This document shows positions 2,969 through 50,489 of a stretch of 64,000 bases of DNA, piece after piece (positions within the stretch are counted from its first letter, which is position 1; every line of letters starts with the position of its first letter). The DNA is from Spongorhabdus nitratireducens (lineage in GTDB: Bacteria; Pseudomonadota; Gammaproteobacteria; Pseudomonadales; Endozoicomonadaceae), in the NCBI GenBank assembly GCA_947387575.1, contig CANDOC010000009.1:186001-250000 (forward strand), written 5' to 3'. The position numbers and the translations under genes were made by a program. Under the pieces are notes generated by a model, which saw only the letters and a list, made by a program, of their open reading frames with translations, had not been told where the DNA came from and made no database searches.

Positions 2969-3510
2969 CAGGAATCCTTGATCCTGACTGGCAAGATCGC
3001 ACTGGCCTGAATGCTGGAAACTGTATTCTCTCCCAGGGTGAATGTGTTGTTATTGTCGGTGTAGCATAGTGTGACTTGTAGCTGTGAAATTTTTGGAGAG
3101 CTCAAGGTTTCTGAAACACGTCGTAAAGGTTCTGTTGCATTGCAGGGCTTATCCGGTTTTGGATTTCTGCTGAAAGAAACGACGACGACACCGCTTTGCT
3201 TTATCTGCATACCCAGCGCATCCGGCTGAAACCCTTTCAGACTTCGGGACATGGACTGACTGACCAGTGAGTAAATCATACGGAATTGTTGTTCGGATAT
3301 AATTGAGTCTGAATTGCTGCTGGCTGCATAGCTGCCTATATTCGCGGCATAAAAGCTGAGCCGTTGTATTACTCCCCGCTGAATCTGGAAAGTCACAACG
3401 TTTGATATCAACAGAATAGTGGCGGCTACTGCTGCAGCAATTAATGCCAGTTCAATTGCGAATGTGCCCTGCTGCTGTTTTTTTGATCTTCCTTTTCCTG
3501 GTGTCAGCAT
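2968..3510 (-). CDS. tadF: TadF-like pseudopilin
   Basis: A 180-residue protein with a short basic leader, then 'QQQGTFAIELALIAAAVAA', the pseudopilin pattern with a glycine before the cleavage site and a glutamate five residues after it. The rest is a periplasmic domain with two cysteines. It lies five bases downstream of the tadE gene. In Tad loci TadE and TadF are processed by TadV and help build the pilus. The E/F assignment rests on gene order, since both families are weakly conserved. Confidence 0.68.
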   Translation of the reverse strand: MLTPGKGRSKKQQQGTFAIELALIAAAVAATILLISNVVTFQIQRGVIQRLSFYAANIGSYAASSNSDSIISEQQFRMIYSLVSQSMSRSLKGFQPDALGMQIKQSGVVVVSFSRNPKPDKPCNATEPLRRVSETLSSPKISQLQVTLCYTDNNNTFTLGENTVSSIQASAILPVRIKDS

Positions 3511-3515
3511 GATTG

Positions 3516-3932
3516 CTACTCCTGTCTGATAAACAGGGCATCTCGGAATATCAGCTTGCTTTTTACCGGCTTGCCATAAATGGCCACTGGCTGATACGGG
3601 TAAGTTATCTGACAGATAGTGACAGTCAAATTCACCGGTATTCTTTTATCATTGCAGTTTTCCACTTTCAGTTTTTTGGTATCAATCAGGCCTGCCCAAG
3701 GGGATGATTGTTGCTGCAAGGACGATTGCAGTGCCTTACCAACTTGTACTGCAGTTGTGAGGCGTGTGCTGCGGCTGGCTTCTGCAGCAGCAAAATCGAC
3801 AGCCGCAGAGACAAAACCAAGCCAGCTGAATTCTATCCAGAAAAAAACCAATGTCAGAAAAGACAGTATGCCCAATGTTGTTTCAACAACAATAGAACCT
3901 TTCTGGCAGGTGAGCTGACTATTAAGATTCAT
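3516..3932 (-). CDS. tadE: TadE-like pseudopilin
   Basis: A 138-residue pilin-like protein. The leader ends in 'CQKG', followed by 'SIVVETTLGILSFLTLVFFW' with the key glutamate at the fifth mature residue, then a membrane helix and a periplasmic tail. Its start overlaps the end of tadD by four bases (ATGA), so the genes are coupled. The role is inferred from the family: a minor pseudopilin matured by TadV and needed for Flp pilus assembly. Confidence 0.75.
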   Translation of the reverse strand: MNLNSQLTCQKGSIVVETTLGILSFLTLVFFWIEFSWLGFVSAAVDFAAAEASRSTRLTTAVQVGKALQSSLQQQSSPWAGLIDTKKLKVENCNDKRIPVNLTVTICQITYPYQPVAIYGKPVKSKLIFRDALFIRQE

Positions 3933-4756
3933 TGGTCTGTCAGGCTGATAGCATTACTGGTCTTCGCAGGGTTGGCATCTATCAGTGCCCTGAATAGCTT
4001 CACATGTTCGTGTTCGGATGCTGAATCGCCATAAACACGTCTGAACTCGCTGTACATTTTTCCCTTGGCCAGAGCTATCAAAAGGTTTGCACGAATTCTT
4101 TCATCAGCCTGGCCACTGCTGTACAAGGGCAGAAGACGTTGGGCTGCTGACTCGTAGTTCTGTTCAAGAATGTCCAGCACGGCAAGGTTATTTTTTATGG
4201 CTGCATCATCCAGCATATTGATTCTGGACTGAGTGAAATACTGACGTGCCAGAGTGTAATTGTCCTGCTCTGCATAGAGCAGACCCAGCTGGTTGTTAAT
4301 ATCCGGATTATCGGGTTGCAATTCTTTTGCTTTCAGAGCGGCTTCCAGAGCTTGCCCGGTTTTATCGTTCAGTTGATAGGTTCTTGAATATAGAAGTAAT
4401 GCTTTGGCGGTGTCGTTACCCGAAGCCGATACCTGGCTGAGATAGAACTGTGCAGACTCGGTATCATGCGTTTCAAGATAGATAGTCACCAGCTTCAGGT
4501 ATATTTCGTCACGTTCTGACTGACTTTGACTGCCTTGCAGTCGAGATTTGTACAGCGCAATAAGCCCTGCATGGTTTTGGGCGGCCTGAAGCAGAACTTC
4601 GTTACTTGCCGCAGGTTCTGGACCTGAGTTATCGGCTGACTGTCGGGCATGCTGCTGAATATTCTGGAAACTACCAGTGCAGCCCTGAAGCAGTATCAAG
4701 CCAAGAATCATGATGGACAGGGATTTGATTATCTTGTGAGTGGAGTAATCAGCCAT
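3929..4756 (-). CDS. tadD: Lipoprotein TadD with TPR repeats
   Basis: A 275-residue outer-membrane pilotin-like lipoprotein of the Tad system. The N-terminus has a signal with lipobox 'LILLQGC'. The middle carries tetratricopeptide-like units, for example 'ALEAALKAKELQPDNPDINNQ' and 'LGLLYAEQDNYTLARQYFTQ'. TadD is thought to help the secretin reach or assemble in the outer membrane. The start overlaps the end of tadC by eight bases, consistent with one operon from flp copy 2 to tadG. Confidence 0.85.
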   Translation of the reverse strand: MADYSTHKIIKSLSIMILGLILLQGCTGSFQNIQQHARQSADNSGPEPAASNEVLLQAAQNHAGLIALYKSRLQGSQSQSERDEIYLKLVTIYLETHDTESAQFYLSQVSASGNDTAKALLLYSRTYQLNDKTGQALEAALKAKELQPDNPDINNQLGLLYAEQDNYTLARQYFTQSRINMLDDAAIKNNLAVLDILEQNYESAAQRLLPLYSSGQADERIRANLLIALAKGKMYSEFRRVYGDSASEHEHVKLFRALIDANPAKTSNAISLTDQ

Positions 4757-5618
4757 CGCTTAAAACCCTCATGATACTGGGCGCTATTATTAATATTACG
4801 ATTGGAAACATAATGAACAGTGCCAGCGGCACTGACATGCGTGCGGATAACTTGCCGGCTTTTTCCTCCAGTTCCAGCATATCGATATCCCGCAGGTTGC
4901 CGGACAACCGGATCAGAACATCAAAGATGGAACTGCCATATTGCAGACTTTGACTCAGGGTGTAGACAAAGCTGCGCATGGCATTTGAAGGGATTTGTTG
5001 CTGAAGTTCGTCAAGGGCATTGTTCATGCCGATAACCCGGGCCCGGGTATCAAGCTGGCTGACGATAAAGGCCAGATCCTTATCGAAGGTTTCAAGCTCC
5101 TTGCCGAGATAGGCAACCGACGACTCAATGGTCATTCCGGTTTGAACGCAGGTGGCCATCAAATCCAGCAAGTAGGGCAGCTGTCGTGATATACGACGGG
5201 TACGCCGTCTGGCCATAAGCTGCAACACAATATCCGGAAGAATAATAATCACCACAACACCTGACAGAACGGTTGCAATCTGAACCTCCCATCTCTCAAT
5301 GCCGAGGTGGGTCTCTGAAATCAGAACGACAGATGCCAGCAGGCTGGTTAACAGTAATTTCGCCGGAAGATAATAAGGCGCAAGTCGGCTGTTATAGATA
5401 CCAGCCTGTATCAAGCTTTGTTCAATATCCTTGCGCCGATAGTTGATCTTGTATTCAAACAGCCCGAAAAAACGTTTCCAACTGGTAATGGTATGAGGCA
5501 GGCCCAGCCAGCCCCGGTTAAACTGGCTGATAAAATAGCGGTTGAGTCGTAAAACAAATGCAGTTGCCACTGTCAGGGAAATCAGCAAGGGAATAAAAAA
5601 GGCATCCATGCCGCTCAT
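4749..5618 (-). CDS. tadC: Tad inner-membrane platform protein TadC
   Basis: A T2SF (GspF-like) membrane platform protein, 289 residues, which pairs with TadB under the TadA motor. It has an N-terminal membrane helix, a cytoplasmic four-helix domain ('RQLPYLLDLMATCVQTGMTI') and C-terminal helices ('PLALFIMFPIVILIIAP'). The ATG at 5618 is chosen because AAGGAG stands six bases upstream; a start at 5636 would overlap tadB by 16 bases without a good ribosome site. Confidence 0.88.
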   Translation of the reverse strand: MSGMDAFFIPLLISLTVATAFVLRLNRYFISQFNRGWLGLPHTITSWKRFFGLFEYKINYRRKDIEQSLIQAGIYNSRLAPYYLPAKLLLTSLLASVVLISETHLGIERWEVQIATVLSGVVVIIILPDIVLQLMARRRTRRISRQLPYLLDLMATCVQTGMTIESSVAYLGKELETFDKDLAFIVSQLDTRARVIGMNNALDELQQQIPSNAMRSFVYTLSQSLQYGSSIFDVLIRLSGNLRDIDMLELEEKAGKLSARMSVPLALFIMFPIVILIIAPSIMRVLSDG

Positions 5619-5620
5619 CG

Positions 5621-6535
5621 TTAACTCCTTACCCATCTCATCAGCAGGTAAATGGATGCGAATCCCACAGCTTCACTGATAATGGTGTAATAAAGTACGG
5701 GACGCCCTTCGTCATCGTGCATGATGAAGTCAAAACTCTCCGGGTTCAGGTACTGCATCGTGAACATAAAGATCACCGGGATGCACGCCACAATCCAGGC
5801 TGATGTTCGGGCTTCGGCGGTAATGGCTCGCTTCTTTTTTTCCAGTGAACGGTTATTGAACATCACCAGATTCAGGCGTTTGATGATTTCTTTCAATTTG
5901 CCACCGCGGCTGATATTGGCGCGCAGAGCGATGGCGAAAAAATAAAATGAAGGGTAAGGGAAACGAATACAGGACTGATTCAGCACATCTTCCGGCGACT
6001 GTCCCACACTCAATCGTTGTCCCATGAGTTTGAATTCCTTGCCAACCATTCCTTCCATTGAATCGCCGACAAAGATAATCGCTTGCATTAGGCCTTCACC
6101 AGAACTGACGGCACCGGATAGCAGATTCAGGGCATCAGGAAAGGACATTTCAAACTGCTTTTTTTCATAAAAGCGTAATCCTCTCAAAGCGACCAGGGCC
6201 AGTATCAAGATGATCAGGGCAAATAGTGCCAGTGGTGAAATATCCGGCGTCAGCGTGTATTCGACAGCGGCAAAAGTCAGACCACAGGCAAGGAGAAAGC
6301 CACAGAGCTTGAGCCAGAGATAATCGCCAATCCGGGCCTTGATATTTTGCAGTTCTACGGTCAATTGAGCTTTCAGGGGCGTATCAGTCAATGTCCTGAT
6401 ATTCAGTGCTTTGAGGTGACCTTTTTGATTGCGGCTGTCTTCCGATTCCAGTAAGAATTCCATAGGATCATTTCTGACAGGCCAGAACAGGGCTATCAGT
6501 GCCAGTGAGATGCCGATAAATAATGCGACGATCAC
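5621..6535 (-). CDS. tadB: Tad inner-membrane platform protein TadB
   Basis: A 304-residue T2SF-domain membrane protein, partner of TadC. It shows an N-terminal helix, two central helices ('LCGFLLACGLTFAAVEY', 'LALFALIILILALVAL'), the cytoplasmic T2SF core ('FPDALNLLSGAVSSGEGLMQAI') and C-terminal membrane segments. The start overlaps the end of tadA by four bases (ATGA), which points to translational coupling with the motor ATPase. Confidence 0.88.
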   Translation of the reverse strand: MIVALFIGISLALIALFWPVRNDPMEFLLESEDSRNQKGHLKALNIRTLTDTPLKAQLTVELQNIKARIGDYLWLKLCGFLLACGLTFAAVEYTLTPDISPLALFALIILILALVALRGLRFYEKKQFEMSFPDALNLLSGAVSSGEGLMQAIIFVGDSMEGMVGKEFKLMGQRLSVGQSPEDVLNQSCIRFPYPSFYFFAIALRANISRGGKLKEIIKRLNLVMFNNRSLEKKKRAITAEARTSAWIVACIPVIFMFTMQYLNPESFDFIMHDDEGRPVLYYTIISEAVGFASIYLLMRWVRS

Positions 6536-7809
6536 TGAATGGTCCCTGCAAAGATATCGTCCAGCGCCTCACCCATACCAAAGAAGCGGGCTTTATGTTT
6601 CAGTATCGAGCGATCGATCAGCCCCGGGGTTGTGAACTGGCCGGTAATGCGTGCGCCACCCTGGGTTGTATCTGGCTGGAAACGGAAGATTTCCTCCAGT
6701 ACAACACTGTCACCCTCAATCCCCATCACTTCACTGATGCTCATGATTCTGCGACTACCATCGTGCAGTCGTGCAATCTGTACCAGCAGATCGACGGCGC
6801 TGGTAATACTACGGCGGATGGCCTCCAGTGGCATGTTGTGAGATGCCATCATGACCATGCTTTCTACCCGCCCCAGAGCATCCCGGGGACTGTTGGCATG
6901 GAGTGTAGACATGGAGCCGTCGTGGCCGGTGTTCATGGCCTGTAGCATTTCAAAGGCCTCAGGACCACGGCACTCCCCGACGATAATCCGGTCCGGGCGC
7001 ATCCGCAGAGAGTTAATCACCAGATCCCGTTGGGTAATAACACCGGTATTTTCGATGCCCGGCGGGCGGGTTTCCATTCGAATAACATGAGGCTGCTTCA
7101 GTTTAAGTTCGGCTGCATCCTCAATGGTAATCACCCGCTCGTTGTCCGAAATATGACGTGATAGCGCATTCAGTAGCGTTGTTTTACCTGAACCGGTACC
7201 GCCGGATATCAGAATATTCAGGCGGCTGTAGGCTGCGACGGCCAGCAATTGAGCCATTTCAAGTGACAGGGTGCCGGTATCAACCATATGACCGAGTTCA
7301 AATTCATTGCCACCAAATTTACGAATTGAAATAACGGGGCCATCCAGTGTGATCGGAGGTATGGCAATATTAACCCGGCTACCATCTGGCAAGCGGGTAT
7401 CACACAGGGGACTCGACTCGTCTACACGACGCCCGGCCTGTGCGGCTATTCGGTGGGCGATATCCAGTAGTTGTTTATTATCAATAAAGGCGACATCGGT
7501 TTTGGTAAGCAATCCGTTTCTTTCGACATAAACACTCTCTGTGCCGTTGACCATAATGTCCGAGACTGAATCATCATCGATCAACGGCTGTAGTGGGCCG
7601 AGTCCCTTGATTTCATGAACCAGCCTTTCAACAAATTCGGTGCGAATCAGCACGGGTACCTGAATGTGATCCTTTTCAACCAGGGTATCCACAGCCTGTT
7701 TCAGCTCTTCCCGCAGTGCATCTGCAGCAAGTTCACTGACCACGGTGGCATCCAGCGCGGCAAATATTTTGCTTCGCAGCTTCAGATAGATGTCCTGGTT
7801 CTGGTACAT
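6532..7809 (-). CDS. tadA: Flp pilus assembly ATPase TadA/CpaF
   Basis: Secretion/pilus motor ATPase of the VirB11/GspE class, 425 residues. Walker A 'GGTGSGKTT' lies at about residues 203-211 and Walker B '[12 protein letters not shown]' near 274-285. The His-box region '[14 protein letters not shown]' follows at about 297-310. The N-terminal CpaF-type domain contains '[11 protein letters not shown]' and 'DIMVNG'. It hydrolyses ATP in the cytoplasm to drive pilin polymerisation through TadB/TadC. It lies 18 bases downstream of tadZ. Confidence 0.95.
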
Positions 7810-7827
7810 GTATCGCGCTCCCTGCGA

Positions 7828-9123
7828 TTAAGTCAGTAACCATGAAAGTAATGACGGCTTTCTAGGTGGTTTACCCAAAATCAGCCGGGTCAGATTTGTC
7901 AGCGGTAAAGAGAGCCGGCTACGGCTTTTACTCAGTTGCTGGCCAGATGCCAGTATCGATTCGCAGTGTTTGGTATAGGGCAGTTCTATCGCGACGGCTT
8001 GTCCGAGATACTGCTCAACGGCTTTACGCTCAATGTGAGCAGCCGGGCGGCAATGGTTTAGAACCAGTAACAGCCGGGTAGGCGTATCGGTGGCATCATT
8101 GATTTGTTGCAGTCGCTCCAGAAAGGCACGAGCTTCATTCTGGCCTGAAAGTGTCGGCTGAATAACCAGAATAATCAGATCGCTTTGGGTACAGAGCCAG
8201 TCCGGGTGGGGGTAAAAGTTAGCTGCAGCCGAATAGTCTTCAATAATAAAGTTTGCACTGGGCTGAAGGGCTTCGACGACCCGGTTGCTGTATTCCCGCA
8301 GGCTGTCGGCATGTGCGGCGGTTGTCTGTTTCTGCTCAAGCTCCAGCTCAAATCCGAGGTAACTGATCTGGTTGGCAACCGGTGAAAGCTGGCCCTGGGC
8401 GCTGACTGGGTCAAGTGTATTTCCCAGTGTAAGGTGGGACATGCCCTGGCTGTTTATCTGCTGTCGTATCAGATCCCGTTTGCCCAGCATCACCGACATA
8501 TTGCTGCCGGTATAACCGTGATCGACAACGATAACTTGCTGCTGACTTTCTTCTGCCAGCTCAAACGCCAGCTGTGACGTCAACATGGTGCAGCCACTAC
8601 CGCCTTTCAGTCCGACTACAGCAATGCGCATCGCCAGTCTGGCGGGCAACGCTGGTGACTGGTTGGCTTTGTGGCGCAGTGTCTGCAGAAAGCTGACCAC
8701 ATCTTGTTTCTCTGCCGGCCAGGGCAGGTAATAAAAGCCCAGTTCCTCTACTGCTCTGAGGGTTCGAATACTGTCTTCAGTGCCAATCAGAACGACTTTG
8801 GTTGCCTGGGGCAGCAGGCTGCGCAGTGTGCGTGCCCTTTTCAGCAGCCCGTCACTTACCTCGATAAAAATCAGTGAAAAGTCTGTTCCAGCGACATTGT
8901 CTTCCAGCGTGGCTGGCGTGCAGGAGCGAGCAACAGGGGCACCGATGCCACTGTAAAGTAATGCTTCTTCCAGCAGGCGAAAGCACTCGGGTGTTTGATA
9001 AAACAGTCCGCAGCTGGTTAGTTTCTGTTGTGACTCCGGACTTTTAGCTTGATCGGGAGCTTTGGCCTGAGACGGGTCTTCCGTTTGTTGCTGCTTGAGA
9101 ATCGCTTCCTTGAGATTCAGCAT
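7828..9123 (-). CDS. tadZ: Pilus assembly protein TadZ/CpaE (receiver-like plus ParA-type ATPase)
   Basis: A 431-residue localisation factor of the Tad machine. An N-terminal atypical receiver-like domain ('VLIGTEDSIRTLRAVEELG') is followed by a MinD/ParA-type ATPase with the deviant P-loop 'VVGLKGGSGCTML'. TadZ proteins mark the pole or site of pilus assembly. The start at 9123 is supported by AGGAGGA a few bases upstream; the longer open frame to 9192 would overlap rcpA and has no such site. Confidence 0.87.
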   Translation of the reverse strand: MLNLKEAILKQQQTEDPSQAKAPDQAKSPESQQKLTSCGLFYQTPECFRLLEEALLYSGIGAPVARSCTPATLEDNVAGTDFSLIFIEVSDGLLKRARTLRSLLPQATKVVLIGTEDSIRTLRAVEELGFYYLPWPAEKQDVVSFLQTLRHKANQSPALPARLAMRIAVVGLKGGSGCTMLTSQLAFELAEESQQQVIVVDHGYTGSNMSVMLGKRDLIRQQINSQGMSHLTLGNTLDPVSAQGQLSPVANQISYLGFELELEQKQTTAAHADSLREYSNRVVEALQPSANFIIEDYSAAANFYPHPDWLCTQSDLIILVIQPTLSGQNEARAFLERLQQINDATDTPTRLLLVLNHCRPAAHIERKAVEQYLGQAVAIELPYTKHCESILASGQQLSKSRSRLSLPLTNLTRLILGKPPRKPSLLSWLLT

Positions 9124-9166
9124 AATGTCCTCCTGACAGTTATGCCCGGTAAACGTAAATAGATGC

Positions 9167-10561
9167 TCATCGCTTGAAGCCTGCAGCACCAAGAATGGAT
9201 GTTGCTCTGCGGTTAACCGGTGGTGGCGGGGTGCCTGGCGGAGGCTTTTTCAGATTAAAAAAGCGCAGCAGGCTGTTTCGCAATTTCAGTCGAGGTAGCT
9301 GAATAGTCTGTGGCTGTACCGGCTGAATCAGATTAACGGTGGCAACAATGATCAGTTCGGTTTTCTGGCGTTCATCCCGGGTATTGCGAAACATGGCGCC
9401 AAGAACCGGAATATCACCGGCTAATGGAATTTTTGACAGGGCTTCCCGGTCTTCAGAGTTCAGCAGTCCTCCCAGTACGAAACTTTCGCCGTCACCCAGT
9501 TGGACGGTTGTTCGGGCTCGGCGGGTTTTGAACGCGGGAATATCCAGTTTGGTATTGCTGTTCTGGGGATCAATGGCACTGACTTCAGGCATCATGGTGA
9601 GATTGATCTTGTCGTCTCGCAGTACCTCTGCGGCCAGATCCAGCTTCACGCCAAATTCTTTATAGGTAATGTTCTGCGAGTCATTGACGAAAGTGATGAT
9701 TGGCATCTCACCACCGGCGAGAAATGAAGCGGTTTCCCCGGATATCACTGATAAGCTGGGTTCGGCCAGAATCTGCCCCATGCTGTCGTCATTGACAGCA
9801 TTGATATAGCGGGCAATATTGCGGGAGTTGAGACCGGTATTGAGCATGCTCAGAAACTCGCCGTTGCCACCTCCCAGCAGGTTCCCTTCGCTGTTAAGGG
9901 TTCCCCATTTGACCCCCAGATGCTGAATAAACGAGTGAGAAACTTCGGCAATGGTCAGTCGGACACTGACCTGCTTGGTTTCCTTTATTTCAATATTATT
10001 AATCAGCCCCCGGTAAGTTCTGCTGTTGAGAAACCGGATGTCATAACTGTCATCGTCATCTTCCCAGCTGATTGTTTCCTGCTCGAATTCCTTCTGTAGC
10101 AGTTCTCCGGTCAGGTAATAAATATCCTTGCGGGTTTGTTCCGAGGTAACGGTTCCACTGAGCACAACCTGATCGCCGAGGTTGGTGAGCTGAATTGCGT
10201 CATTGGGAAACCGGGCCGCAAGCTGCTGCCTGATAAATCGGAGATCTTTATTGATAACCAACATTTTGCTGTCGATGGTTCGGCCCCTTTCATCGAACAG
10301 CAGCAATGAAGACTGTCCCACGGCTCTGCCGAAAACAATAATCTGGTTGCCTTTTACCACGCGATAATCAGCTATATCCGGGTTGGCGATAAACACAGTA
10401 TCAATGGGGGTCGCGTACTTGAGGGGGCGTGCCTCATCAATGGCCAGGTTGATCGTATCTTGCGCGCGAGCCAGAGTGCTGAAAAACAGAATATAGAAAC
10501 ATGATATAAGTGGTATCAGTTTTATCAGGAGGACACGTCCTGTGTGCTTGCTCCTTGTCAT
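9167..10561 (-). CDS. rcpA: Flp pilus secretin RcpA/CpaC, copy 2
   Basis: Complete 464-residue outer-membrane secretin. A signal peptide (about residues 12-33) is followed by the pilus N-domain ('VFIANPDIADYRVV'), a BON region ('IQLTNLGDQVVLSG') and the C-terminal secretin domain ('FLAGGEMPIITF', 'FVLGGLLN', 'IPLAGDIPVLGAMFR'). It ends in a proline-rich tail ('PPPGTPPPPV'). It forms the gated channel for the Flp pilus and stands between rcpC and tadZ. The fragment at 1-618 is its paralog. Confidence 0.93.
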   Translation of the reverse strand: MTRSKHTGRVLLIKLIPLISCFYILFFSTLARAQDTINLAIDEARPLKYATPIDTVFIANPDIADYRVVKGNQIIVFGRAVGQSSLLLFDERGRTIDSKMLVINKDLRFIRQQLAARFPNDAIQLTNLGDQVVLSGTVTSEQTRKDIYYLTGELLQKEFEQETISWEDDDDSYDIRFLNSRTYRGLINNIEIKETKQVSVRLTIAEVSHSFIQHLGVKWGTLNSEGNLLGGGNGEFLSMLNTGLNSRNIARYINAVNDDSMGQILAEPSLSVISGETASFLAGGEMPIITFVNDSQNITYKEFGVKLDLAAEVLRDDKINLTMMPEVSAIDPQNSNTKLDIPAFKTRRARTTVQLGDGESFVLGGLLNSEDREALSKIPLAGDIPVLGAMFRNTRDERQKTELIIVATVNLIQPVQPQTIQLPRLKLRNSLLRFFNLKKPPPGTPPPPVNRRATSILGAAGFKR

Positions 10562-43446: not shown

Positions 43447-45228
43447 ATGCGCAGTCATTATTGCGGTGAACTGGATCTTTCCCTCGACGGGCAGGAAGTC
43501 ACTCTGTGTGGCTGGGTGCACCGTCGTCGAGATCACGGTGGTGTAATTTTCCTGGACATGCGGGACCGTGAAGGTGTTGCCCAGGTTGTTTTTGATCCGG
43601 ACACTGTTGACGCGTTTGCGCTGGCCGACAAGTGCCGCAGCGAATATGTACTGAAAATTACCGGTCGTGTCCGTCCGCGTCCGGAAGGTACTGTTAATCC
43701 GAACATGCGTACTGGCGAGATCGAAGTGCTGGGCAAGCAGCTGGAGATCCTGAACTCTGCGCTGACCCCTCCGTTCCAGCTGGACGAATTTACCGATGTC
43801 GGTGAAGACGTGCGTCTGCGTAACCGTGTTGTCGATCTGCGTCGTCCGGAAATGCAGGACAAGCTGATTCTGCGCAGCAAGGTCACCAGTCTGGTTCGTC
43901 GTTACCTGGAAGAGAAGGGTTTCCTGGATATTGAAACCCCAATGCTGACCCGTGCGACCCCGGAAGGTGCCCGCGACTATCTGGTACCGAGCCGTGTTCA
44001 CGGTGGTTCCTTCTACGCGCTGCCGCAGTCTCCGCAGCTGTTCAAGCAGATGCTGATGGCGTCCGGTTTTGACCGTTACTATCAGATCGTAAAATGCTTC
44101 CGAGACGAAGACCTGCGTGCTGACCGTCAGCCTGAATTCACCCAGATCGATATCGAAACTTCCTTCCTGGAAGAAGAACAGATCATGGGTATCACCGAAG
44201 GTCTGGTGAAGGAAATGTTCCAGCAGCTGAAAGACGTTGATCTGGGCGAATTCCCGCACATGACCTATGCCGAAGCCATGAGCCGTTTCGGTTCCGACAA
44301 GCCGGACCTGCGTATTCCGCTGGAACTGGTTGATGTTGCCGATCTGATGGCCGGTGTTGAGTTCAAGGTCTTCAAAGGTCCGGCTGAAGATCCGAAAGGC
44401 CGTGTTGCTGCACTGAAGGTAACCGGTGGTGCAGAACTGAGCCGTAAGCAGATTGATGAATACACCAAGTTTGTTGGCATTTACGGTGCCAAGGGCCTGG
44501 CGTGGATCAAGGTTAACGCAATCGAAAACGGTGCTAACGGCCTGCAGTCTCCGATCATCAAGTTCCTGGGTGATGATGTCACCATGAAGATCATGGAACG
44601 CCTGGATGCCCAGAACGGTGATATCGTATTCTTCGGTGCTGATAAGGAAACCGTGGTCAACGAAGCACTGGGCGCACTGCGTTGCAAGCTGGGTGAAGAC
44701 CTGAACCTGTACACCCGTGACTGGGCTCCGCTGTGGGTTGTTGACTTCCCGATGTTCGAGGAAACCGACAAGGGTGCCCTGACAGCACTGCACCACCCGT
44801 TCACTGCTCCGACCTGTACTGCCGAAGAGCTGAAAGCCAACCCGGCACAGGCGCTGTCCCGTGCTTATGATATGGTACTGAACGGCTACGAAGTCGGTGG
44901 TGGTTCCGTTCGTATCCACAAGGAAGATATGCAGCAGACCGTATTCGAGGTGCTGGATATTGAACAGGAAGAACAGCGCGAGAAGTTCGGCTTCCTGCTG
45001 GATGCACTGCAGTACGGTGCACCGCCGCACGGTGGTCTGGCATTCGGTCTGGATCGTCTGGTGATGCTGATGACTGGTACTACCAACATCCGTGAAGTGA
45101 TTGCCTTCCCGAAAACCCAGTCTGCATCCTGCCTGCTGACCCAAGCGCCGGGTGAAGTTGATGCCCAGCAGCTGCGTGATCTTAATATCCGCATTCGTCG
45201 CGATCCGGCTTCTGCTACTAGCCACTAA
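43447..45228 (+). CDS. aspS: Aspartyl-tRNA synthetase AspS
   Basis: A 593-residue bacterial-type enzyme. An N-terminal OB-fold binds the anticodon ('[20 protein letters not shown]', in part). Class II motif 2 is '[19 protein letters not shown]' and motif 3 is '[13 protein letters not shown]'. The inserted GAD domain lies between them. Codon use is strongly biased (CTG, GGT, CGT), as expected of a highly expressed gene, and this leaves a long empty frame on the other strand. Confidence 0.97.
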
Positions 45229-45385: not shown

Positions 45386-45419
45386 AAGCCAATAAATACA
45401 CAGGATGGAGCACAAAATA

Positions 45420-45875
45420 ATGAATAAAAGAAAGATTACTTTTGCCAGCCTTTTGACTTTGCTGTTTTCACTGCAGGTTTTTCCGGCGCTGGCCAAAGAC
45501 GAAATCTATACCAGTTTCTTCAGTAACAAAGCTGTCGGTGGCTATGACACAGTTGCCTATTTTACGGAAGGTCGTCCGGTAGAAGGCAGCGATAAATTCA
45601 GGACTGAATACAAAGACACCGTTTGGTACTTCAGTAGTGCCGAAAACTTGAAAAAATTTAAAGCTGATCCTGAAAAGTATGCGCCTCAATACGGTGGTTA
45701 TTGTGCCTGGGCTGTCGGTCAGGGTTACACCGCCAGTGGCGATCCAAAACAGTGGCATATCGACAACGGCAAGCTGTACCTGAATTACGACGCAGAAGTA
45801 AAAGCGGAATGGCTGAAAGACAAAGCCAAATGGATTGAAGCTGGCGATAAAAACTGGCCAAAAGTAATTAATTGA
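45420..45875 (+). CDS. Secreted YHS-domain protein (Cys form of a selenoprotein-type family)
   Basis: A 151-residue exported protein, start ATG 45420 after GGAG. Signal peptide 'FASLLTLLFSLQVFPALA'. The domain 'AVGGYDTVAYFTEGRPVEGS' and 'WYFSSAENLKKFKADPEKYA' fits the YHS domain family whose members may carry selenocysteine at 'GGY-U/C-A'. Here the residue is cysteine (TGT) in 'YGGYCAWAVGQG'. YHS domains are linked to metals. It is the first gene of the set that continues with a DoxX-like protein, two ATP-grasp ligases and an MFS transporter. Confidence 0.8.
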   Translation: MNKRKITFASLLTLLFSLQVFPALAKDEIYTSFFSNKAVGGYDTVAYFTEGRPVEGSDKFRTEYKDTVWYFSSAENLKKFKADPEKYAPQYGGYCAWAVGQGYTASGDPKQWHIDNGKLYLNYDAEVKAEWLKDKAKWIEAGDKNWPKVIN

Positions 45876-45980
45876 ATCCATTGTCAGAAATACGACGTAT
45901 AGAGCAATAACAACAGTTAAAGAGTGGATAGTTGCAGGGGAGAGAATGCAGCTACCCATCTCAAAGCCGGAAGTGAAACC

Positions 45981-46502
45981 ATGAAAAAGCAAATCGTACA
46001 AATCTTCAGCTGGGTTACCGTGGCCTGGATTGCCAAAGTCTTTCTTGCCTCACTGCCCTACAAGTTCTCCGGTCACCCGGATACCCAACATATCTTCGGT
46101 ACTATTGGCGGCTGGATGCAGGGAGTACTGGGTGAAGGTATTGGCAGCTGGTTCGCAACCAGTGGTGCGATTGCCGTAGGTTCGGCTGAACTGGTTGTCA
46201 GCGTATTTCTGCTGGTTCCTGCTCTCTTCTTTGTGCGTGAAAAGCTGACCGGCCGCAAGCCTGTTTTCAGCCGGGCCCATTTCCATGCTCTGGGCGGACT
46301 GGCTGCTTCCGGCGTCATGACCGGTGCGGTTTTCTTCCACCTGTTTACCCCGCTGGGTATTGTCGTACTGCATGAAGGTAAAAGCGACGGCGGTTCCCTG
46401 TTCTATGCGGCGGCTTCCATTCTGGTACTGGGTCTGATTATGGCAGCAGCCAACTTCAGCCTGATTAAACAAGAAAAAGTCGAGGGTGTGCCGGCTTACT
46501 AA
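45981..46502 (+). CDS. DoxX-like inner-membrane protein
   Basis: A 173-residue membrane protein with four helices ('IFSWVTVAWIAKVFLASL', 'GSAELVVSVFLLVPALFF', 'LGGLAASGVMTGAVFFHLF', 'AASILVLGLIMAAANFSL'). The layout and 'YKFSGHPDTQHIF' followed by 'GIGSWFATSGAIAVGSAELV' (in part) suggest the DoxX/DoxD-like group. ATG 45981 follows an A-rich start region 105 bases after the YHS gene. It lies 36 bases before the first ATP-grasp gene. Its biochemical role is not known; DoxX proteins have been tied to redox and sulfur stress. Confidence 0.66.
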   Translation: MKKQIVQIFSWVTVAWIAKVFLASLPYKFSGHPDTQHIFGTIGGWMQGVLGEGIGSWFATSGAIAVGSAELVVSVFLLVPALFFVREKLTGRKPVFSRAHFHALGGLAASGVMTGAVFFHLFTPLGIVVLHEGKSDGGSLFYAAASILVLGLIMAAANFSLIKQEKVEGVPAY

Positions 46503-46538
46503 GTGCCGGCCTGACTCCTACTACCGGGAAGTAAGACC

Positions 46539-47393
46539 ATGATTACTCGCTCTCTGCTGGTGCTGTTCTATATCTGGCACTGTATCTGGCTGCGTGTTCG
46601 TCCCTGGCTGTTTTTTCAGCTGAATGCAGATTACTTCAACAATGCTAAAGGGATCTTTTCCAAACTGGATATGGATCAACGTATACCGGCCCGCTGGAGA
46701 CTGAACCAGTTTCGGGATAACGGTGTGCAGCAGCCTGAAAGCTTTCCGGTATTTATCAAACCGGAATGGGGACAGAACTCAGCCGGTATTACCCGGGCTG
46801 ATAGCCAGATTGAACTGGACGCAGCAAGAGCAGCAAGAACTGAGGCTGACCTGCCATATCTGGTGCAGGAGAGTGCACCGGGCAAGCGGGAGTTCGAGGT
46901 TTATCTGATTACTTCCGAACTGACATCGGATCAGTTCGCCACCCTGTCGATTACCGAAGTCACCAACACCAGCGGTGAAGATCTGCCGGTAAACGGTATT
47001 TACAACAAACAAACCAGCTATCGGGATATTTCTGCCGAGTTGAGCTACGGCCAGATGCAACAGCTCTGGGATCATCTGAAAACAGTCGGTTACTTCAGAA
47101 CCGCAAGGTTCGGCATTCGGGCCGACAGTGTGCAGGATCTGGTGGCTGGCGAGTTCAAGATTTTTGAAATCAATCTGTTTCTGCCGATGCCTCTGGTTCT
47201 GCACTGTGAAAATACGACAGCCACACAGCGCCTGGGGATGATTTATCGTCTCACTTATCAGCTGGCTGCCGTTACCGGAACGATTCCCGAACGGAAAAAC
47301 AGAAAGTCCATTTTCTTTCGCAAACTGTTTGGCAAAAAAAGTACAGCTTCAACCTCCTCTGAAATTGCCACCCATAAGGAAGTTATTTCATGA
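46539..47393 (+). CDS. ATP-grasp ligase-like protein 1
   Basis: A 284-residue protein with an N-terminal hydrophobic stretch ('LLVLFYIWHCIWLRVRPWLF'). ATP-grasp features: the B-domain lysine in 'FPVFIKPEWGQNSAGI', the adenine-hinge region 'YLVQESAPGKREFEVYLI' and the metal-binding 'FKIFEINLFLPMPL' (E-x-N). Such enzymes join a carboxylate to an amine through an acyl phosphate. The substrate cannot be read. Its stop overlaps the start of the second ATP-grasp gene (ATGA), so the two are made together. It differs from gene 2 in sequence and is not a simple duplicate. Confidence 0.68.
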   Translation: MITRSLLVLFYIWHCIWLRVRPWLFFQLNADYFNNAKGIFSKLDMDQRIPARWRLNQFRDNGVQQPESFPVFIKPEWGQNSAGITRADSQIELDAARAARTEADLPYLVQESAPGKREFEVYLITSELTSDQFATLSITEVTNTSGEDLPVNGIYNKQTSYRDISAELSYGQMQQLWDHLKTVGYFRTARFGIRADSVQDLVAGEFKIFEINLFLPMPLVLHCENTTATQRLGMIYRLTYQLAAVTGTIPERKNRKSIFFRKLFGKKSTASTSSEIATHKEVIS

Positions 47394-48298
47394 AATTTCT
47401 GAAAAAGACCCTTTACAGCTATATCAGCAGAAAGTTCATGAATGGCTGCACCAACTATAACTCGCTGGACGTGCGCAAAAGCTGTCGTTCCAAGGAGCAG
47501 GCACGGGATACCTTCGCGGCTAATGATATTCCCCATGCCAAAGGGGAAATTTTCATAAACCCGTGGAGAGCACATCAGTTTGCCAAAGAACACGGTTTTC
47601 CGCTGGTGATTAAACCGAATGTCGGCGGGTTCTCCCGCGGCAGTTACTTTCCAATCAAAAATTTCCGGGAATTATGGAAAGCCATTTTTCTGGCCAAGAT
47701 CTGGTGGCCTGCCAGTGTGGTTGAGCAGTATCTGGAGGGCAAAAACTACCGGGTGCTGGTGGCTAACGGCAAAATCGTATCGGTGATTCAGCGCTATGCG
47801 CCTTTTGTCACCGGTAATGGTAATGACTCGATCGCAACCCTGATTGATGCTGAAAACAAGATCCGTGAAGAGATGGGATTGCTGGGGTGTATGTACCCGC
47901 TGCAAAAGGGTGAGCAGACCCAGAGCTATCTGGCCAAACAGGGTTATAACCTTGATACCGTTCCGGCCAGTGGTGAGCAAGTGAAGTTGTTCCACCGTAT
48001 TGCGCTGGCGCCAGGTGGTGTGGTTGAGACCATTCAGAAACAAAAGGTAACAGCAGATAACCATCAGCTGATGGAAAAAACCATCGATGCCTTTGGTGCC
48101 CGGATTCTGGGTATTGATGTCATCATGGAAAAAGGTATTGAGCATAGCCATAAAGATCAGAAGTGCATCCTGCTGGAAGTGAACTCCCGTCCCTATGTCA
48201 AAATGCACGATTATCCCCGCTACGGTGAAAGGGATGATCTGGCAGCCTGCTTTGCCGAGCTGGATCAGCTCGAAGTGGCTCAGGCAGACGTATTCTAA
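47390..48298 (+). CDS. ATP-grasp ligase 2 (cyanophycin-synthetase-like core)
   Basis: A 302-residue enzyme with a full ATP-grasp set: lysine in 'PLVIKPNVGGFSRGSYFP', 'VVEQYLEGKNYRVLVANGKI', 'RYAPFVTGNGNDSIATLI', Asp in 'ILGIDVIMEKGI' and the E-x-N in 'LLEVNSRPYVKMHDY'. The G-x-x-Y-R-V-L-V and V-T-G-x-G blocks resemble the ATP-grasp part of cyanophycin synthetase and GshF. A peptide-like ligation is likely. It is coupled to gene 1 and lies 12 bases before the MFS transporter. Confidence 0.76.
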   Translation: MKFLKKTLYSYISRKFMNGCTNYNSLDVRKSCRSKEQARDTFAANDIPHAKGEIFINPWRAHQFAKEHGFPLVIKPNVGGFSRGSYFPIKNFRELWKAIFLAKIWWPASVVEQYLEGKNYRVLVANGKIVSVIQRYAPFVTGNGNDSIATLIDAENKIREEMGLLGCMYPLQKGEQTQSYLAKQGYNLDTVPASGEQVKLFHRIALAPGGVVETIQKQKVTADNHQLMEKTIDAFGARILGIDVIMEKGIEHSHKDQKCILLEVNSRPYVKMHDYPRYGERDDLAACFAELDQLEVAQADVF

Positions 48299-48310
48299 GA
48301 GAGTATTCTG

Positions 48311-49504
48311 ATGACTACGGCAGTGCGCTACTTCTACAGTTTTTCCGGTATTCATGCCTTTCTGATTGGTCTGCTGCCGTTTTTCCTGCCGACCTTGCTA
48401 TGGCGGCAGGGATACTCCCTGAGTGAAATTGCCGGCTTTATCTCAGTGTCAGGGCTTGCCTACTTTGTAACCCTGATTGGCTGGGAGAAATTAAGAAGTA
48501 GCCGCTGGAAACTATGGGCTGTTCGTGGCTCCTTTGTGACAGAAGCCCTGCTGGTTTTAATGCTGGTTCAGGCTGAAGCAACCGGTTTATGGTTGTTGGC
48601 AGTGGCGAATGGTGTATACGGCTGTTTTTACTGGATGTCCCAGCGTCTGCTGTTCAAGGACTTATCCAGTTACCGCAATTCAGGTAATCATTTCGGTAAC
48701 TTCCAGATTGTTGTAACTGTACTGCTGAAACTGGGCATTCTGGCAGGGGCTTTCCTGCTGGAGCACAGTAGCCAAATGTTGCTGGCAGTACTGGCTGTAA
48801 CAGCATCTCTGCTGGGATTACTGCATACCTGGAATAAAGAGACGAAAGCGGAAATCTTGTCAGCGCTTAAAGCCGACAGGGTGAGTCTTAAGCAAGCGCT
48901 AAACCTGAAAGACGGCAATCACTCCAAACTGGTTTTCTTTGTTGATGGCTTGTTTCTTTTTCTTGAAAGCTATTTCTGGACATTGTCGCTTTACTTCCTG
49001 AGCAGTGAAAAGCTCATGAATCTGGGGGGGATGGTTGTAGGCTTGGCAGTTGCGCTGGCATTACTGTTCTGGATGGTGAAACGTTCAATCGACCGTGTTG
49101 ATGCCATCAAACTGCTGCGTATAGCAACAGCGTTGTACGCCGTGTCATGGTGGCTGCGCAGTGGTGTTGCTCCAGATATGAATCTGCTGCTTCAGCTGCT
49201 ACTGATTATGACGATTGCTTTCTTTACCAGCCTGTTCCGGTTGGCTTTCAATAAGGTCTTTTTTGATCGTGCAGAGCAGGCGTTTACCCAGCAATATTTA
49301 TTGGCGAAAAGTTATTACTCTCAGGCTGGTGTTTTTGTCTTCTTCGGGCTGTTAGCGCTGTTTGCTATCGACAGTGGTTCTGCAATGGAGCAATTAAACT
49401 CAGTTTATATTTATGCTTCGCTGTTGGTGCCTGCGCTGTGGCTGTACGCAATGAAAACTCAGTCACAGCAGAAGGAAGAGTATGTGGGCGTCGTGCCCTC
49501 GTAA
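48311..49504 (+). CDS. MFS transporter of the ATP-grasp operon
   Basis: A 397-residue membrane protein with 11-12 predicted helices in two halves joined by a basic loop ('NKETKAEILSALKADRVS'). The N-terminus 'FLPTLLWRQGYSLSEIAGFI' looks like the MFS first helix pair. No substrate signature is seen. Its position after two ligase genes suggests export of their product. It is convergent with moaA, with only four bases between the stops and no visible terminator. Confidence 0.75.
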   Translation: MTTAVRYFYSFSGIHAFLIGLLPFFLPTLLWRQGYSLSEIAGFISVSGLAYFVTLIGWEKLRSSRWKLWAVRGSFVTEALLVLMLVQAEATGLWLLAVANGVYGCFYWMSQRLLFKDLSSYRNSGNHFGNFQIVVTVLLKLGILAGAFLLEHSSQMLLAVLAVTASLLGLLHTWNKETKAEILSALKADRVSLKQALNLKDGNHSKLVFFVDGLFLFLESYFWTLSLYFLSSEKLMNLGGMVVGLAVALALLFWMVKRSIDRVDAIKLLRIATALYAVSWWLRSGVAPDMNLLLQLLLIMTIAFFTSLFRLAFNKVFFDRAEQAFTQQYLLAKSYYSQAGVFVFFGLLALFAIDSGSAMEQLNSVYIYASLLVPALWLYAMKTQSQQKEEYVGVVPS

Positions 49505-49508
49505 ACAG

Positions 49509-50489
49509 TCAGCCGCCCACTTGAGCCAGATTACGGGTCATACCGGTAATACCCTGATCCAGAAAGTGACTGGCTTCTTTTAATTTGAGCGACTCTCTCA
49601 TGCGAATGACCAGTTCTTCATGCTGGTCATCACTCTGAAGTAAATCTCTTAATTCAATCCCTGAGCTGGCAAACAGGCATAACTGCAACTGCCCCTGGCT
49701 GGTAACGCGCAGGCGGTTACAGTTATGACAGAAGTCGGGAGCGTACGGCATGATCAGGCCAATCCGGCCACGATAATCATCGTGATAAAACTCCTGAGCC
49801 GGGCCTGCATCAAGCTCCCGGGGCAATGTTTTCCAGCCCCGGTTTATCAGATCATCATATATTTTCATCCCGGAAACATGATGGTCGTTAAAGAATCGGG
49901 TATTACTGCCCGTTTGCATCAGTTCAATAAAGCGAAGTGAAACAGGTTTATTGCTGACCCAGTTGATAAAACTATCAAGACTCTCATCATTGAGCCCTTT
50001 CATCAGTACCGCATTCACCTTGATTTTTGACAGACCACTGGCAAGGCCGGTTTCTATACCTTTCAGAATATCTTTAAGGCGATCATGACCTGTAATTAGT
50101 TCAAAGGCTTTGGGGTCAAGGCTGTCGATACTGATATTGACTGAATCGATACCGGCATCTTTCCATTGGGTAATACATTGACTGATTTTGTAGCCATTGG
50201 TCGTCATGGCGACTTTTTTGATGCCGGGAACCTGCTTAACGGTGCTGACAATATCCAGAAAGTCTTTTCTTAATGTGGGTTCGCCACCGGTCAGGCGCAC
50301 TTTTTGAGTGCCTACTGCTGCAAAGGCCAGAGTCAGGCGACGAATTTCGTTTATGGAAAGGGCATTATTGTGGTGATGATCAAAGCAGCCTTCAGGCAGG
50401 CAGTAGCTGCAACGGAAATTGCAAAGGTCAGTAACCGACAGCCTCAGGTAGGGAAATGTGCGTCCCAGTGTGTCTTGTAATCGTTCCAT
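49509..50489 (-). CDS. moaA: GTP 3',8-cyclase MoaA
   Basis: Radical-SAM enzyme, first step of molybdopterin synthesis. The N-terminal [4Fe-4S] motif is 'TDLCNFRCSYC' (CxxxCxxC), the SAM motif 'RLTGGEPTLRKD', and the second cluster is 'FCHNCNRLRVTSQGQLQLC' near residues 255-273. The C-terminus ends in Gly-Gly, needed for activity in the family. It lies 49 bases after the 43-residue microprotein gene and is probably co-transcribed with the nap genes, whose product needs the cofactor. Confidence 0.95.
   Translation of the reverse strand: MERLQDTLGRTFPYLRLSVTDLCNFRCSYCLPEGCFDHHHNNALSINEIRRLTLAFAAVGTQKVRLTGGEPTLRKDFLDIVSTVKQVPGIKKVAMTTNGYKISQCITQWKDAGIDSVNISIDSLDPKAFELITGHDRLKDILKGIETGLASGLSKIKVNAVLMKGLNDESLDSFINWVSNKPVSLRFIELMQTGSNTRFFNDHHVSGMKIYDDLINRGWKTLPRELDAGPAQEFYHDDYRGRIGLIMPYAPDFCHNCNRLRVTSQGQLQLCLFASSGIELRDLLQSDDQHEELVIRMRESLKLKEASHFLDQGITGMTRNLAQVGG

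Follow-up and report, generated by a model that had tools for sequence, protein, structure and literature searches.

A conserved YHS-DoxX-ATP-grasp-MFS gene set of Spongorhabdus nitratireducens and a candidate pathway for amides of hypotaurine or taurine

The stretch of DNA analysed here (the window: 64,000 nucleotides, positions 186,001 to 250,000 of contig CANDOC010000009.1, assembly GCA_947387575.1) belongs to Spongorhabdus nitratireducens of the Endozoicomonadaceae, and lies inside the contig we label C9 of a 5.04 Mb genome. It carries five plus-strand genes between aspS and moaA, which code for a YHS-domain protein, a DoxX-like membrane protein, two ATP-grasp proteins that we term AG1 and AG2, and a transporter of the major facilitator superfamily (MFS). 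In window coordinates the layout is as follows:

43447-45228, plus strand: aspS, flank of the five-gene set
45420-45875, plus strand: YHS gene, YHS-domain (seleno)protein family; an alternative in-frame ATG lies upstream at 45405
45981-46502, plus strand: DoxX-like gene, for a DoxX/MauE-like membrane protein
46539-47393, plus strand: AG1 gene, for a short putative ATP-grasp carboxylate-amine ligase with a reduced N-terminal domain
47390-48298, plus strand: AG2 gene, for a putative stand-alone CphA/GshF-type ATP-grasp ligase of 302 amino acids, ATP-grasp part only
48311-49504, plus strand: MFS gene, for the presumed exporter of the product
49509-50489, minus strand: moaA, flank of the five-gene set

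The intergenic distances in this order are 105, 36, -4 and 12 bases, all as given in a preliminary description of this DNA, the AG1 and AG2 genes thus overlapping by 4 bases. The purine-rich motifs GGAAG or GAGAG precede the starts of the DoxX, AG1, AG2 and MFS genes. A promoter scan returned no sigma-70-like match (4.1 expected from shuffles), and terminator-like matches stood at chance (6 found, 5.4 expected).

The ligase pair has a sporadic distribution. Counting the window genome, AG1 was found in 12 of 94 genomes in the search of relatives, in 11 of 369 genomes of the class and in 2 of 398 of the phylum; a further search recovered it in 11 of 257 genomes of the class to which Desulfopila (G841; G and L numbers are our handles for genomes and loci) belongs. 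Named genomes provided 12 AG1 loci, and a strong AG2 match (at least 500 bits) was present in 11 of the 12 named genomes found through AG1. After merging duplicates, the carriers of AG1 and AG2 comprise 28 gammaproteobacterial genomes and members of the Desulfobacterota. Genes at these loci are longest open reading frame calls with approximate starts; several loci end at contig edges, and ‘unlinked’ below means on another contig. Of the 28 gammaproteobacterial genomes, 11 hold the complete five-gene set in the window order. This recurrence puts the grouping beyond chance. We regard the set as real, and as coherent in function. The idea that the five genes stay together across genomes is borne out for these 11; elsewhere the locus is looser, with YHS present in 17 and DoxX in 18 of the 28, and neither was found at the Desulfobacterota AG1 loci. 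The conserved core is therefore the two ligases, with the MFS transporter in most loci: the G005 locus showed no MFS gene, and in G415 its place is taken by a VTT-like gene (30.5 bits, cut-off 33.9).

A tree of joined AG1 and AG2 sequences, as the preliminary description had proposed to build, was made from 36 loci; of the 42 available, two duplicates (L017 and L028) and four AG1-only or truncated loci (L027, L077, L078 and L087) were omitted. It places the window inside a gammaproteobacterial group of 25 rows with support of 98/97; the row of L050 is very long, and the deepest fork is weak. A reading as a mobile element was set aside, since plasmids gave only remote CphA/GshF-type matches to AG2 (50 records, all below 60% identity; 24.6-31.1% among the 20 matches listed) and viral contigs held no confirmed AG2 relative.

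By the motifs of both proteins and the modelled fold of AG1, we assign AG1 and AG2 to the superfamily of ATP-grasp carboxylate-amine ligases. AG1 scores 24.2 bits with Pfam Dala_Dala_lig_C, barely above the cut-off of 24, and AG2 scores 24.8 bits with RimK (cut-off 21). A KPEWGQN loop and an E-x-N motif are invariant in the alignment of 19 AG1 sequences (K74, E210, N212 in the window protein), and a similar motif set is invariant among 18 AG2 sequences (K75, E263, N265); we take these residues to be the nucleotide-loop lysine and the metal-binding glutamate and asparagine of ATP-grasp enzymes. An AlphaFold2 model of AG1 (12 sequences; pLDDT 80.3) adopts an ATP-grasp fold with a reduced N-terminal domain, for which the top structural matches are nearly tied: LysX/ArgX (Z 14.0), synapsin (13.9) and CphA (13.8), followed by RimK and Ddl. 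As had been noted, the two overlapping genes differ, the proteins sharing a local match of only 31 residues (E 0.005). The cyanophycin-synthetase/GshF-like blocks earlier seen in AG2 were also recovered, far under the respective cut-offs: 155.3 bits for cyanophycin synthetase TIGR02068 (cut-off 850) and 97 bits for GshF PRK02471 (cut-off 425; only profile positions 492-744 of 756). The remaining candidates likewise fall short, N-acetylglutaminylglutamine synthetase TIGR03103 with AG2 (75 bits, cut-off 569) and D-alanine--D-alanine ligase TIGR01205 with AG1 (25.9 bits, cut-off 245.65). These scores rule out an identification as cyanophycin, glutathione, D-Ala-D-Ala or N-acetylglutaminylglutamine (NAGGN) enzymes, and neither ligase reaches the cut-off of a curated pathway model, which agrees with the initial remark that no named pathway with this set was known.

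A Pfam search of the window MFS protein returned no family match; PF07690 (MFS_1) is matched by nine of 11 aligned homologs at E<=0.1. Its AlphaFold2 model (11 sequences; pLDDT 88.4) has a full-length MFS fold with LacY as best match (Z 27.7). From these homologs and the predicted fold we classify the transporter as a member of the major facilitator superfamily. When its profile was searched against the sequences of solved structures, NorA chains were the sole matches, and weak ones (E 0.007-0.02).

The YHS protein passes Pfam PF04945 and NF041384, an NCBIfam ‘(seleno)protein’ subfamily (161.5 bits, cut-off 70), and bears a hydrophobic, signal-like N-terminal segment (residues 6-25). Its Cys95, at a GG[YHF]C site, is the single shared cysteine and is invariant in 14 of 14 aligned proteins; the selenocysteine position of the NF041384 family probably corresponds to this site. 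Since one cysteine is common to all aligned proteins and the family is named ‘(seleno)protein’, the sequence points to redox chemistry. The metal or sensing role first suggested for this protein has found no support so far, and the invariant cysteine is read as redox instead. A YHS search covering the window's own genome gave four matches, three of them above the cut-off.

The DoxX-like protein has four hydrophobic segments and no cysteines, and gave no match in a Pfam search. Homologs remain below the DoxX_2 cut-off of 26.3 (19.6 in L049, 21.2 in L130), and the L130 paralog scores 27.0 with MauE, exactly at the cut-off of 27.0. Across 16 aligned proteins Lys28, Glu70, His120 and Asp136 are invariant. 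An ortholog is present in 25 of the 28 gammaproteobacterial AG1/AG2 genomes, lying on another contig in seven, and is missing from G249, G359 and G451; it was found in five of 274 class genomes, all five AG1-positive, and in none of 26 Endozoicomonadaceae lacking AG1 (E<=1e-20; only weaker paralogs, best 2e-16) nor in any of the 11 Desulfobacterota AG1 genomes searched. Because the ortholog tracks AG1 across gammaproteobacterial genomes though unlinked, DoxX appears to be part of the pathway there even where the operon is split. The suspicion that relatives might carry the YHS/DoxX pair and the ligase-transporter trio apart thus proves half right: the pair is not always beside the ligases, as the unlinked DoxX genes and the Desulfobacterota loci attest, yet the DoxX ortholog still follows AG1.

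A clue to the substrate comes from what adjoins the ligases in relatives. Cysteine dioxygenase (CDO) converts cysteine to cysteine sulfinate, from which cysteine sulfinate decarboxylase (CSAD) yields hypotaurine; together they form the known hypotaurine route. In 9 of the 11 Desulfobacterota loci with readable upstream sequence, a pyridoxal phosphate-dependent CSAD-like decarboxylase and/or a cupin protein (CDO) is encoded directly upstream of AG1:

CSAD and CDO: G833, G988, G1087 and G993
CSAD only: G963, G964 and G961 (broken frame)
CDO only: G836 (contig edge) and G834 (matching fragment of 36 residues)

This count leaves out G962, the sequence of which begins within AG1, and a second, partial AG1 match in G988; the two exceptions, G841 and G965, are also without AG2 at the locus. 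Among gammaproteobacteria, G415 has the run DoxX-CSAD-CDO-AG1-AG2-VTT-like, which combines both locus types, and G335 has CSAD-AG1-AG2-MFS. Both enzymes hence adjoin the ligases in five genomes (G833, G988, G1087, G993 and G415) and one of them in six more, and the CSAD and CDO genes overlap in L019 and L049. An adjacent CSAD-CDO pair is further found on another contig in the gammaproteobacterial AG1/AG2 genomes G139, G281, G349, G837 and G838. Across 369 class genomes CSAD (E<=1e-60) occurs in six: 5 of 11 AG1-positive genomes versus 1 of 358 others (Fisher p 4.9e-8, with relatedness ignored and two 369-genome draws, the listed handles of which agree, taken as the same set). The one carrier lacking AG1, G430, belongs to the genus of the AG1-positive G335; the genome is 71% complete, and a contig start truncates its CSAD.

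Three side observations concern these loci. CSAD of G961 (L079, 6223-7684) is spread over three open reading frames within a 4.3 Mb contig, from gene decay or sequencing errors. Upstream of the DoxX-CSAD-CDO-AG1-AG2 run of G415 (L049, 4273-5630) are genes that by look code for a Rieske-type ferredoxin and a TrpD2-like protein; a similar TrpD2-like gene, again by look, is upstream of CSAD in G993 (L080, 14067-15251).

The CDO proteins of L019 and L049 pass Pfam PF05995, and for that of L019 cysteine dioxygenases were the only PDB matches. In an alignment of ten, Y[ST]R is kept in all, and HGHP and N-x-IH in nine each; presumably these are the substrate arginine and iron ligands known from rat CDO. 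The decarboxylase finds its best PDB matches in GADL1, CSAD and GAD chains with close scores, and its specificity position, Phe in CSAD and Ser in GAD67, is Trp in all 12 sequences in which the site was found (15 tried). Excerpts of a study of GADL1 name an aromatic residue at this position as the main reason why activity on glutamate is lost (PMC7367687). The same enzymes could be taken to mean that the amine is beta-alanine (or gamma-aminobutyric acid), with the decarboxylase acting on aspartate (or glutamate), the ligases making a beta-alanyl or related peptide, and CDO being incidental or acting on another thiol. We regard this as improbable. GADL1, a top PDB match of the L019 decarboxylase, is described in the same excerpts as decarboxylating aspartate, the L080 decarboxylase scores highest with GAD67, by half a bit, and CSAD is found beside AG1 without adjacent CDO in G335, G963, G964 and G961. 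However, CDO, which yields a sulfinate and not aspartate, adjoins the decarboxylase in five AG1-linked and five unlinked loci, and the decarboxylase shares an aromatic specificity position with CSAD and GADL1, where GAD has Ser, although this counts against glutamate rather than aspartate.

Given that the CDO/CSAD hypotaurine route is linked to the operon's distant relatives, hypotaurine or taurine is the likely amine substrate, and this is the best-supported addition to the earlier interpretation. The latter, in which two ligases build a small conjugated product that the MFS protein exports, still stands as the best reading, refined in that the amine is probably one of these two compounds. 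We see about even chances that the operon covers ligation, export and membrane redox chemistry in an apparently undescribed pathway with hypotaurine or taurine as its amine. Such a pathway might run as follows. In the relatives, cysteine dioxygenase would make cysteine sulfinate and the CSAD-like decarboxylase would turn it into hypotaurine. AG1 and AG2 would use ATP to convert one or more carboxylate partners into acyl phosphates and couple these through one or two amide bonds, so that an acyl- or peptidyl-(hypo)taurine would result; ATP-dependent formation of (hypo)taurine amides is the activity predicted for the pair. The MFS protein would export the product from the cytoplasm, and in gammaproteobacteria the exported YHS protein, with its one conserved cysteine, and the DoxX/MauE-like membrane protein might oxidise or process it at the membrane. 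Marine animals are rich in taurine and hypotaurine, and Endozoicomonadaceae would obtain the amine from the animal host or seawater. For the window genome an outside source, or else another amine, is suggested because neither CDO nor CSAD was seen there.

Several observations weigh against this pathway. Some concern the window and its branch: its genome lacks a PF05995 hit (CDO) and a decarboxylase at E<=1e-20. The absence of CDO is less certain than that of CSAD, since the rather insensitive Pfam search missed divergent CDOs beside CSAD in G281, G349 and G837. Cluster-type CSAD, with or without CDO, is present in only 7 of the 28 gammaproteobacterial AG1/AG2 genomes, and most of the linked evidence comes from Desulfobacterota, at loci without YHS and DoxX. 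In the tree, the CSAD/CDO-linked rows (Desulfobacterota, G415 and G335) fall outside the window's 25-row group, as does the G139 row; the linkage evidence hence comes from branches other than the window's. Inside that group, however, G281, G349, G837 and G838 have the CSAD-CDO pair elsewhere in the genome, which counts in favour of the pathway. As for other family members, G021 shows a 38% CSAD homolog but no CDO, and weaker decarboxylases occur in G005, G012, G020 and G033.

Others concern the enzymes themselves. PF05995 alone shows no clear enrichment, being found in 5 of 32 AG1-positive genomes (G139, G415, G833, G838 and G839) and 1 of 26 AG1-less ones (G001; G030 has a sub-cut-off hit), and the hits of G838 and G839 adjoin a gene that looks CoA-transferase-like rather than CSAD. 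The later CDO active-site positions vary (His in 8 of 10, Tyr in 6 of 10), and the varying Tyr speaks against a fully standard CDO. For L080, GAD67 beats CSAD by the margin given above, so that glutamate or aspartate decarboxylase activity is compatible with the similarity. The substrate specificity of AG1 and AG2 is not readable from sequence, and the fold matches of the transporter are near-tied among importers, exporters and peptide transporters, the fold thus giving no direction. Finally, AG1 stands without AG2 at the G841 and G965 loci, and G841 retains CSAD at the syntenic site (L124, 7644-12716; compare L081 of G963, 3215-10331) with no AG1-AG2-MFS there. From this it follows that hypotaurine formation is not strictly tied to the ligases.

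A second operon brings a different product into consideration. In the window genome and in the AG1-less G030, an ATP-grasp gene stands with genes for a VTT protein (assigned by position and look in L131), YHS, DoxX and an OlsF-like bifunctional acyltransferase. The latter scores 413.2 bits (L130) and 432.6 bits (L131) with OlsF NF052615, below the cut-off of 620. The two loci are:

3771-9178 of L130 (G000:C14:70000-82000): second operon, DinB gene on the opposite strand
4059-9297 of L131 (G030): second operon, DinB gene on the opposite strand

Like the window operon, it has YHS and DoxX proteins (53% and 38% identical to those of the window), an ATP-grasp protein weakly similar to CphA, and a DinB gene; unlike it, it has the VTT protein and the OlsF-like acyltransferase instead of AG1 and MFS. 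It is possibly a modified aminolipid pathway. By extension, the product of AG1 and AG2 could be a membrane lipid or lipophilic amide. The ligases would then furnish an acyl chain or aminolipid with a headgroup of (hypo)taurine or an amino acid, and the MFS protein would serve as lipid flippase; we consider this a live but unlikely alternative. The pairing of ATP-grasp, YHS and DoxX with an acyltransferase in L130 and L131 speaks for it, as does the VTT-like protein replacing the MFS gene in G415. A precedent is cerilipin, a taurine-ornithine lipid of Gluconobacter. In Legionella, according to an excerpt of PMC11631085, an ATP-grasp enzyme makes acyl-histidine. It is opposed by the neighbours of AG1/AG2, among which no lipid acyltransferase was seen (open reading frame lists judged by look, and family searches of part of the neighbours), and by AG1, in which no segment exceeds the hydrophobicity threshold used; moreover, the second-operon ATP-grasp protein resembles AG2 over only about 100 residues, at 27-31% identity.

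DinB recurs at the AG1/AG2 loci as well. A DinB-like gene follows the MFS gene in eight AG1/AG2 genomes (G832, G249, G359, G023, G084, G003, G010 and G026; Pfam DinB was checked in two), without TANGO2 in L017, L041, L042, L051, L053 and L056, and the DinB proteins of these loci and of the second operon are related (E 8e-17). YHS, DoxX and DinB thus turn up alongside ATP-grasp proteins in two settings. In our reading, YHS and DoxX could form a module that processes the products of the ligases or acts on them by redox chemistry. Further genes of these neighbourhoods are:

10933-12161 of L018: DinB-family and TANGO2/NRDE-like genes after the MFS gene
4440-5770 of L054: DinB-family and TANGO2/NRDE-like genes after the MFS gene
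4133-5647 of L024: AMP nucleosidase-domain gene (by Pfam) after the MFS gene
11361-12839 of L046: AMP nucleosidase-domain gene (by look) after the MFS gene
11359-12876 of L047: AMP nucleosidase-domain gene (by look) after the MFS gene
5054-7013 of L090 (G838): CDO-model hit of a second kind, next to a CoA-transferase-like gene (by look)
4284-6066 of L091 (G839): CDO-model hit of a second kind, next to a CoA-transferase-like gene (by look)

In the Granulosicoccaceae-type loci L024, L046 and L047 a gene that looks retropepsin-like precedes AG1. The DinB and TANGO2 neighbours could suggest stress or cofactor handling, and many AG1/AG2 genomes show neither CDO nor CSAD; both would fit a peptide for detoxification or signalling, with no relation to taurine, as the product of the ligases, the CDO/CSAD linkage then reflecting shared regulation by sulfur supply. 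This is distinctly improbable in our judgement, as regulation alone hardly explains the direct adjacency in two phyla, the CSAD/CDO overlap in L019 and L049 and the unlinked co-occurrence.

Returning to hypotaurine or taurine as the amine, a bolder and rather doubtful proposal is that an ATP-grasp ligase pair makes exported (hypo)taurine amides of a new class, which may be membrane lipids, and that a YHS cysteine protein in the periplasm processes them together with a membrane redox partner of the DoxX type. Some Desulfobacterota would make their own hypotaurine for this, and invertebrate symbionts would use the host pool. If true, (hypo)taurine amides would be a currency of sulfur amines that passes between animals and their bacteria, and the poorly understood YHS (seleno)protein and DoxX-like protein would gain a testable role tied to a defined ligase pair. 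Among open-licence papers in PMC we found none combining ATP-grasp with Endozoicomonas, ATP-grasp with the YHS domain, or the YHS domain with DoxX, and no description of such a gene set. Two coral-microbiome papers, in the excerpts available, describe host taurine as available to coral bacteria, and the bacterial use of taurine that they discuss is its degradation, through TauD or a taurine aminotransferase (PMC8269258, PMC9502895). A conserved pathway building on taurine would be a role other than breakdown in this family of coral and invertebrate symbionts.

Among known systems, the closest parallel to the proposed upstream step is the bacterial CDO-CSAD route of Synechococcus PCC 7335 (Agnello 2013, as mentioned in an excerpt of PMC8153620): both genes are likewise adjacent in relatives of the operon or elsewhere in the genomes of these, whereas here the route is combined with two ATP-grasp ligases and a transporter, and the route was not found in the window genome. 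The ATP-grasp domains of CphA1 and GshF align with AG2 over approximately residues 32-285, including the EVN motif; AG2 differs in being a stand-alone protein of 302 residues without the Mur-ligase or GshA part. Compared with LysX/ArgX, RimK and the D-Ala-D-Ala ligases, AG1 has a reduced N-terminal domain and only 8-18% identity among the matches listed, but it shares with them the ATP-grasp fold (best Z 14.0, root mean square deviation 3.5, 215 residues) and the catalytic loop.

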